DNA of 40,473 nt from NCBI GenBank assembly GCA_020073105.1, contig JAIQFW010000009.1, positions 1-40,473 on the forward strand, in the 5' to 3' direction. The first letter of the stretch is position 1; every line of letters begins with the position of its first letter. Below are positions 24,920 through 25,754 of the stretch, piece after piece. This DNA comes from Terriglobia bacterium (GTDB lineage Bacteria; Acidobacteriota; Terriglobia; Terriglobales; Acidobacteriaceae). The position numbers were made by a program, and so were the translations under genes. The notes under the pieces were generated by a model, which was given only the letters and a program-made list of their open reading frames with translations, did no database searches and had not been told where the DNA came from.

Positions 24920-25414
24920 TCAGTCCTGGGGGCTGAGTTTCTGCAGCGCCTCCAGCAACTCATCATTCTTTGGGGTCTGATCCAGCGGATACACCCTGGC
25001 AAACACAATCTTCCCGCCCTTGTCCACGATGAACGCCGCGCGCTCGCTGATTCCCGCCAGCGGCGGACCCTCCCGCATGATGCCGAACGCCTGCGTTACC
25101 GCACCGTGCGGATAGAAGTCCGAGCACATCGGAATGTGGATCTCGCCAATCTCAAATTTCTGCCACGCCTTGTGGCTGTAGATCGAATCTACGCTTATGT
25201 CCAGGACCTGGGCATCGAGGGCGGCGAACTTCTCGCGATCCGAGTCGAGCGCCGGCACCTGTTCCCCTCACGTCGGTGTCCAGTCCAGGGGGTGGAACGT
25301 CACCACCACGCGCTGTTTTCCGCGATAGTCGCTGAGCCGTATCTTGACGTTGCGCCCGTCCTCGACCGCCGGCAGCTCAAAGTCCGGCGCCACATCCCCC
25401 ACCTTCAGTGCCAT
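24920..25414 (-). CDS. Peroxiredoxin, probable selenoprotein (in-frame UGA at the catalytic position)
   Basis: A 164-residue AhpC/TSA-family peroxiredoxin if the TGA at 25268-25270 is read as selenocysteine. The start at 25414 (MALKVGDVAPDFELP) follows GGAG. The first 48 residues end PLDWTPT. Then comes TGA, and the same frame continues GEQVPALDSDREKF, AQVLDISVDSIYSHKAWQKF and GISERAAFIVDKGGKI to a final TGA stop. The family motif is P-x3-T-x2-C; here it is P-x3-T-x2-UGA, so the UGA sits exactly on the peroxidatic cysteine. No frameshift is needed and both halves keep family homology. A possible hairpin follows the UGA: CTCG and CGAG arms 24-36 nt downstream with loop GATCG, inside outer arms GGCG and CGCC. 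A nonsense mutation is the alternative. Two separate small genes are unlikely. Confidence 0.85.
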
Positions 25415-25500
25415 TTCCGTCTCTCCGTTGTCATCGCATTTTACTCTCGAAGCGACTTGATTTTGTCTTATCCGCAGAAATCCGCGGCGTGAGTTTGTCC

Positions 25501-25530
25501 CAAACACAAAGGGCAGCCTTTCGGCTGCCC
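25501..25530 (-). terminator. Terminator of the cold-shock gene
   Basis: Perfect stem GGGCAGCC (25511-25518), loop TTTC, GGCTGCCC (25523-25530). On the minus strand it is followed by the T-rich TTTGTGTTT. It lies 24 bp after the csp stop and 87 bp before the peroxiredoxin start, so the two genes are separate units. Confidence 0.85.
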
Positions 25531-25553
25531 TCGTTTCGGATTGTAAAAGTGGC

Positions 25554-25754
25554 TTACGCCGGCTTTACGTTCTCGGCCTGCCAGCCCTTGGGGCCCTTGA
25601 CCACATCGAACTGGACTTGCTGGCCTTCCTGCAGGCTGCGGAATCCACTGGCCTGGATTGCCGAGAAGTGTACGAACACGTCCTCGCCATTCTGACGGCT
25701 GATGAAACCATAACCCTTGGCGTCGTTAAACCACTTTACTGTTCCTGTTTCCAT
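25554..25754 (-). CDS. Cold-shock domain protein (CspA family)
   Basis: A 66-residue single OB-fold RNA chaperone. RNP1 is KGYGFISRQ and RNP2 is DVFVHFSAI; the N-terminus [18 protein letters not shown] is canonical. Residues and length are standard. The space upstream (25755 to about 25880) has no gene and may hold the long 5' leader typical of such mRNAs. Confidence 0.97.

Follow-up and report, generated by a model that had tools for sequence, protein, structure and literature searches.

The locus described here raises the question of whether a UGA codon that interrupts a peroxiredoxin reading frame at its catalytic residue is read as selenocysteine (Sec) and, if so, which RNA signal directs the recoding. 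The window analyzed is a 40,473-nucleotide stretch of the genome of a Terriglobia bacterium (Acidobacteriota), and the gene, a member of the AhpC/TSA family, lies on its minus strand at positions 24920–25414. The coding frame (25414–24923) comprises 164 codons when read through UGA codon 49 and is followed by a terminal TGA (24920–24922). A GGAG at 25423–25426 on the same strand, 5′ of the ATG (25412–25414), is a likely ribosome-binding site. A sequence-only reading of the window had placed a TGA (25268–25270, minus strand) at the position of the peroxidatic cysteine, with peroxiredoxin sequence on both sides. Our analysis confirmed this placement: the TGA is residue 49 of the 164-codon frame and falls exactly at the family's motif position (P42-x3-T46-x2-U49, with U the presumed Sec). 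Moreover, the Pfam AhpC-TSA profile matched the read-through frame at 109.5 bits (cut-off 26) over residues 5–138, and hence family sequence spans both flanks of the UGA.

The above-cut-off profile match is accompanied by the catalytic residues of the family (T or S, C or U, and R), and the in-frame UGA aligns with a conserved Cys between homologous flanks that lie in a single frame. P42, column 49, and R125 did not vary among 24 aligned proteins. When the catalytic columns were counted over 56 UGA and 51 Cys/Ser rows, the UGA rows had Thr at column 46 in 54 cases and Ser in 2, and Arg at column 125 in 56/56. Column 42 was Pro in 34 and Ala in 16 of these rows (Pro replaced in 22/56, mostly by Ala; the window keeps Pro). 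An AlphaFold2 model with C substituted for U had a mean pLDDT of 95.4, and the predicted structure matches PDB peroxiredoxins (peroxiredoxin fold). We infer peroxidase activity for the protein.

Homologs show that the UGA is a recurrent state of this codon. Among 90 loci from the same class, column 49 was encoded by TGA in 42, TGC in 42, TGT in 4, and AGC in 2. These comprised 30 loci returned by the search and 60 chosen from the listing, mostly from the top down. Elsewhere in the analysis, loci L247–L262 were chosen mostly for a listed TGA and do not form a random sample (2 of these 16 carry Cys codons), and two loci with identical proteins (L032 and L224) were both counted. TGA was also found at column 49 in 10/25 loci from the phylum, in 22/30 loci from the class of genome G565, and in 14 of the best 80 of 368 genome_contigs loci (the others having TGC, 56, or TGT, 10). 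Relatives thus carry TGA at this codon and not at random positions, as the sequence-only reading had anticipated for a selenoprotein. Since 42/90 class homologs carry TGA and 46 a Cys codon, the TGA at column 49 is not a product of chance, and on a 173-row tree at least 13 changes between TGA and Cys/Ser are needed. Neither TAA nor TAG occurs at column 49 in the 90 class loci, and the other stops inside these alignments are confined to columns 161–162, which is the protein end. Recoding of TAA or TAG at codon 49, hinted at by "TAG" and "TAA" entries in the search output, was considered separately and rejected for these 90 loci, in which TAA/TAG stand at columns 161–162. Two genomes carry second copies (L133 in G251, L145 in G236) in which the peroxidatic column holds Ser (AGC) and the motif Thr is replaced by E or Q; both genomes also carry a UGA copy, and the second copies are perhaps non-peroxidase paralogs.

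If the codon is recoded, the source genome (308 contigs, 97.6% complete) would be expected to encode the Sec pathway, and the sequence-only reading had named selA, selB, selC (tRNA-Sec), and selD as the genes to look for. We found selA (551 bits, over the cut-off), selD (348 bits), and a tRNA-Sec (68.7 bits) with the anticodon tca (UCA) together in this genome; seven further matches to the tRNA-Sec model were, on inspection, other tRNAs. The selD gene (contig C206, L009) has an in-frame UGA of its own (AAGUASKL) and a hairpin at approximately 20 nt. For selB, two pieces were recovered at contig edges, each scoring below the whole-protein cut-off of 242.25 bits. The N-terminal part is cut off by the end of contig C215 (196.6 bits, profile positions 1–155), and the C-terminal part lies at the end of contig C110 (106.4 bits, profile positions 211–578). 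It is probable that selB is present as these two pieces and likely that assembly caused the split. A 406-aa frame on contig C33, taken as EF-Tu, also scores 195 bits with the selB profile, and the call for the N-terminal part therefore rests on its per-residue score and our own reading.

Across the class, selA was matched in 38/41 genomes with a UGA copy (listing compared by hand), with weak matches in two of those 38 (G034, 4e-44; G188, 2e-67). Three genomes with a UGA copy (G067, G092, and G124; 75%–84% complete) are absent from the selA matches listed. In the class of G565, which was reached via a Myxococcales locus, selA was over the cut-off in 22/22 genomes with a UGA copy. Because 218/299 class genomes overall pass the selA cut-off, selA alone discriminates weakly. 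A Chloroflexi genome (G564), perhaps incomplete, carries a UGA peroxiredoxin (L094) and had no selA match in the 1.8 Mb of its sequence that was covered.

The sequence-only reading had offered a dead gene as the alternative to read-through. No positive evidence was found for a pseudogene or sequencing error, although the assembly is fragmented into 308 contigs; the same TGA recurs in many genomes between open flanking frames, the RNA structure is constrained (see below), and Sec pathway genes are present, so that a dead stop is highly improbable. A genome-wide code change, with UGA read as Trp or Cys, would also leave the peroxiredoxin frame open at UGA; against it, the gene itself terminates at TGA and the genome has Sec pathway genes, among them a tRNA-Sec whose anticodon is UCA, and we consider such a change to have next to no chance of being correct. 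Read-through with Sec, as originally proposed, is supported by the machinery genes, by the hairpins, and by the TGA-bearing relatives. Hence, the gene almost certainly encodes a Sec peroxiredoxin, with Sec at UGA 49. By itself, this is one more member of a known family.

The RNA signal is less conventional. According to passages of PMC13188914, the bacterial SECIS (bSECIS) model comprises a loop of 3–9 nt that lies 16–37 nt after the UGA, an upper stem of 4–16 bp, a G within the first two positions of the loop, and a minimum free energy (MFE) of at most −7.5 kcal/mol, and passages of three sources report that some bacterial SECIS elements break this model (PMC13188914, PMC9312934, PMC12013277). 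In the genes studied here, with the UGA numbered as bases 1–3, we identified two hairpins in the coding sequence 3′ of the UGA. The distal one spans 25197–25215 on the minus strand (bases 56–62 paired with 68–74), and its loop (GGUCC, bases 63–67, positions 25204–25208) begins 59 nt after the UGA. In 53 UGA genes it was the sole consensus structure obtained with RNAalifold, and the 46 Cys genes yielded no consensus structure. Cells of the distal helix were paired in 96.7% of cases in the UGA set versus 67.7% in the Cys set. In the UGA alignment, both partners had changed in 19 cells, and pair 57:73 accounts for 18 of these. For the UGA set, the paired cells, the changed cells, and the covariation were each matched by 0/500 shuffles, and two of the five measures were reached by 9/500; for the Cys set, the paired-cell count was reached in 179/500.

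A rule requiring at least four of five core pairs, the inner three pairs, and a G within the first two bases of the loop recognized the distal hairpin in 53/53 UGA versus 9/46 Cys genes of the set from which it was derived. Applied unchanged to loci fetched later, it recognized 41/45 UGA genes, for a total of 94/101 UGA versus 12/75 Cys/Ser genes. The same association appeared when phylogeny was taken into account: among nine independent pairs on supported branches, 7.5 on average differed in the same way, 0.0 in the opposite way, and 1.5 did not differ (median P = 0.008, range 0.008–0.125). A first, smaller tree gave six independent pairs (median P = 0.0625). The trees were built without two repeat fetches (L237, L260), two loci with gaps (L035, L040), and genome_contigs Cys loci with <38% identity; L094, L144, and L041 were left off the second tree and kept in its counts. 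Free folding from +4 to +80 produced the inner part of the distal hairpin in the MFE structure of 87/94 UGA versus 2/75 Cys/Ser genes, and folding from +13 produced it in 93/94 versus 3/75.

Constraint on the distal hairpin is also visible at the level of single positions. The loop reads GGUCN in 73/94 UGA genes, and its G64-U65 is invariant (53/53). Pair 58:72 is GC in 79, AU in 13, and GU in 2 of the 94 UGA genes, the AU form combining an amino-acid change with a synonymous change. For the 53 UGA genes, the third-position entropies of 24 conserved four-fold codons were lowest at codons 68 (0.23), 72 (0.26), and 70 (0.73), the fourth-lowest value being 1.14; in the 46 Cys genes, codons 68, 72, and 70 had entropies of 1.50, 1.43, and 1.11. 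Of the 24 codons, number 70 also shows the least variation in the Cys genes, where it reads GTG, compared with GTC in the UGA genes. The hairpin occurs, with compensatory changes, both in Acidobacteriota and in the class to which a Myxococcales genome led. No other RNA feature that we found was as constrained, and the hairpin is a real, conserved, UGA-linked feature of the family.

Seven of the 101 UGA genes do not have the distal hairpin, namely a TGG-U subclade (L057, L062, L255, L256, L258, and L259) and the Chloroflexi locus L094; three of these (L094, L057, and L062) were excluded from the 53-row UGA set and counted among the seven. Folds of L255, L256, L258, and L259 have a hairpin loop 22–23 nt after the UGA. 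Two Cys peroxiredoxins nested in a UGA clade (L127, L135) keep 6/7 distal-hairpin pairs, which might fit recent Sec-to-Cys changes.

Such constraint bears on the reading that the distal hairpin is a displaced SECIS, that is, the sole SelB site, acting from 59 nt through folding of the intervening RNA. Its standing as the most constrained RNA part argues for this reading, as does a loop that is the same as that of a formate dehydrogenase (FdhA) hairpin in the same class (discussed below), and the intervening region in UGA genes folds more stably than synonymous shuffles. On the other side, passages of PMC13188914 set the loop at 16–37 nt, the RNA path from the UGA to the distal loop is not significantly shortened (see below), and a proximal hairpin likewise accompanies the UGA. 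We regard a sole distal site as possible and rather doubtful.

The proximal RNA region (bases +4 to +54; 25217–25267, minus strand) contains an upper helix and loop (CUCG-GAUCG-CGAG, bases 27–39; 25232–25244, minus strand) with pairs 27–30:36–39, a loop at 31–35, and a spacing of 27 nt after the UGA. Below it lies a lower helix (bases 16–20 paired with 46–50; 25221–25255, minus strand, arms 25251–25255 and 25221–25225). The upper helix was 67.8% paired in the UGA set, with 42 cells changed on both sides and a covariation of 0.428 (0/500 shuffles), versus 33.7% and 0.151 in the Cys set (also 0/500). It was complete in 51 of the 94 UGA genes carrying the distal hairpin and incomplete in 43, versus complete in 1/75 Cys/Ser genes. 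The lower helix was 77.7% paired in the UGA set versus 37.4% in the Cys set, and at least four of its five pairs were present in 61/94 UGA versus 8/75 Cys/Ser genes. Compared with synonymous shuffles, bases 4–54 had a mean z of −1.70 in UGA genes (P ≤ 0.05 in 36/72) versus −0.10 in Cys/Ser genes (P ≤ 0.05 in 4/67). Under the strict stem energy (−7.5 kcal/mol), the proximal hairpin was no commoner in UGA genes (6/72) than in Cys/Ser genes (5/67), and with the flanks folded it was found in 33/42 TGA versus 8/42 TGC genes. The UGA is co-conserved with both hairpins. The downstream hairpin that the sequence-only reading had put forward as a check therefore exists in the UGA homologs, where both hairpins covary, and is weaker in the Cys homologs. 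That reading had not anticipated a second hairpin farther away.

These data can also be read as an ordinary bSECIS, in which the proximal hairpin alone recruits SelB and the distal one is a helper, such as an element that causes pausing or prevents termination in connection with UGA recoding. The spacing, loop length, and loop-start G of the proximal hairpin fit the published model, its upper helix covaries strongly, and the window and its close relatives keep it through compensatory change (CUCG-GAUCG-CGAG in the window versus CUCC-GACCG-GGAG in L024 and L104). Against this stand the presence of the complete proximal hairpin in just 51/94 UGA genes versus the distal one in 94/101, a proximal loop whose sequence is in part dictated by an Asp codon (33/53), and the match of the same-class FdhA loop to the distal loop. 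We give this reading serious weight, somewhat short of an even chance.

The RNA of the window itself illustrates both fit and misfit. Its proximal hairpin agrees with the bSECIS model in loop, G, stem (at least 4 bp), and spacing (27), and its MFE is −15.5 kcal/mol with flanks folded and −3.4 kcal/mol for the best bare contiguous stem (model limit −7.5 kcal/mol). The distal hairpin falls outside the distance range of the model (59 nt versus 16–37 nt), and for this reason can be called SECIS-like at most and not a member of the model. Alone it has −5.4 kcal/mol, and its stem contains a C59-A71 mismatch that is common to 7/94 genes. The MFE fold of the 77-nt window RNA is without the distal hairpin, the 5′ arm of which pairs with the GGG adjoining the UGA, and the distal pair probability is 0.055 when folding starts at +4 and 0.936 when it starts at +13. 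During UGA decoding, the first bases after the UGA sit inside the ribosome. If the first nine are taken to lie there, the distal hairpin could form.

For the window RNA alone, comparison with shuffles gave no significant z for the distal hairpin (−1.19), the whole 77 nt (0.44), or the proximal region (−0.78), and a further value was −0.20. The path from the UGA to the distal loop was 18.7 steps versus 19.2 in synonymous shuffles (P = 0.064), and we accordingly make no claim of a special fold that brings the distal hairpin near. An Rfam scan of 1,001 bases around the gene gave no match that reached its gathering score. The best of them, a weak match to the cspA thermoregulator (32.3 bits; gathering score 78), lies just upstream of the gene at 25504–25700 on the minus strand and is cut off at the edge of the 1,001-base stretch searched.

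The best explanation, which we hold with high confidence as a whole, is a Sec peroxiredoxin whose UGA is recoded via a two-hairpin element. SelA and SelD would help to make the Sec-tRNA with which SelB reads UGA codon 49 as Sec, and the selenolate of residue 49 would be the peroxide-attacking group. The recoding signal would be the two-hairpin RNA element in the coding sequence 3′ of the UGA, in which the proximal hairpin has the customary spacing (loop at +27) and the distal hairpin, with a mostly GGUCN loop at +59, is the more conserved of the two. We infer Sec insertion itself from the codon, the family, the machinery genes, and the UGA-hairpin co-conservation. Because the proximal hairpin covaries too, the idea of the distal hairpin as the sole SECIS is weakened to one of two hairpins, and the proximal-helix data imply that the position and loop of the window's proximal hairpin agree with the usual model, with two hairpins family-wide. 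A role of the distal hairpin in UGA recoding appears probable, given its conservation with the codon. That it is the main SelB-binding site is a putative assignment toward which we incline less than halfway. For Acidobacteriota and the Myxococcales-containing class, we lean toward Sec insertion via a two-hairpin or displaced SECIS, with a putative SelB-binding GGUC loop at +59 that cooperates with the proximal hairpin or replaces it.

The importance of the distant, highly conserved second hairpin lies in the limit of 16–37 nt that the published model sets for the loop and that the SECIS-based gene finder applies. If the +59 loop does serve SelB, both this rule and the tools would have to be broadened, and selenoprotein genes may be escaping detection. 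With two hairpins that have been lost naturally in Cys relatives, the question lends itself to direct testing.

Among known systems, the Sec peroxiredoxin (TxxU; PF00578) is a listed known family in passages of PMC13188914 and PMC9312934; the window's protein belongs to the same AhpC/TSA family and has U at the peroxidatic position of PxxxTxxU. It differs in that this clade has a second conserved hairpin at +59 nt, which the passages on known Sec peroxiredoxins do not mention. The open-licence literature searched, in the passages obtained, likewise made no mention of a bacterial SECIS at approximately +59 nt or in tandem (PMC1794560, PMC13188914, PMC1088965, PMC9312934, PMC8659212, PMC4513850, PMC12013277, PMC4561486). 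The best PDB sequence relatives are Mycobacterium tuberculosis AhpE and Arabidopsis 2-Cys PrxA (E = 7.4e-22 and 1.4e-23), both of which are also among the structural fold matches of the predicted peroxiredoxin and, unlike it, are not selenoproteins. A Sec peroxiredoxin was reportedly described from Eubacterium acidaminophilum.

Other UGA genes of these bacteria offer a comparison for the RNA. The FdhA UGA genes of nine same-class genomes (L274–L282) have, at a spacing of 18 nt from the UGA, a stem of approximately 7 bp with the loop GGUCU. This SECIS-like loop resembles the GGUCN of the distal peroxiredoxin hairpin, but its spacing is 18 nt and not 59. For selD, 30 loci were checked (two have Cys and eight missed the motif used), and 20 UGA genes carry a hairpin approximately 20 nt after the UGA with a loop that, by eye, is mostly GGU/GG-like; RNAalifold on the UGA selD genes gave four outer pairs only. 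Set against the bSECIS model as passages of PMC13188914 give it, the proximal peroxiredoxin hairpin fits in position, loop, and G, and the distal one in loop size and G; the departures are a distal loop 59 nt away and the conservation of two hairpins.
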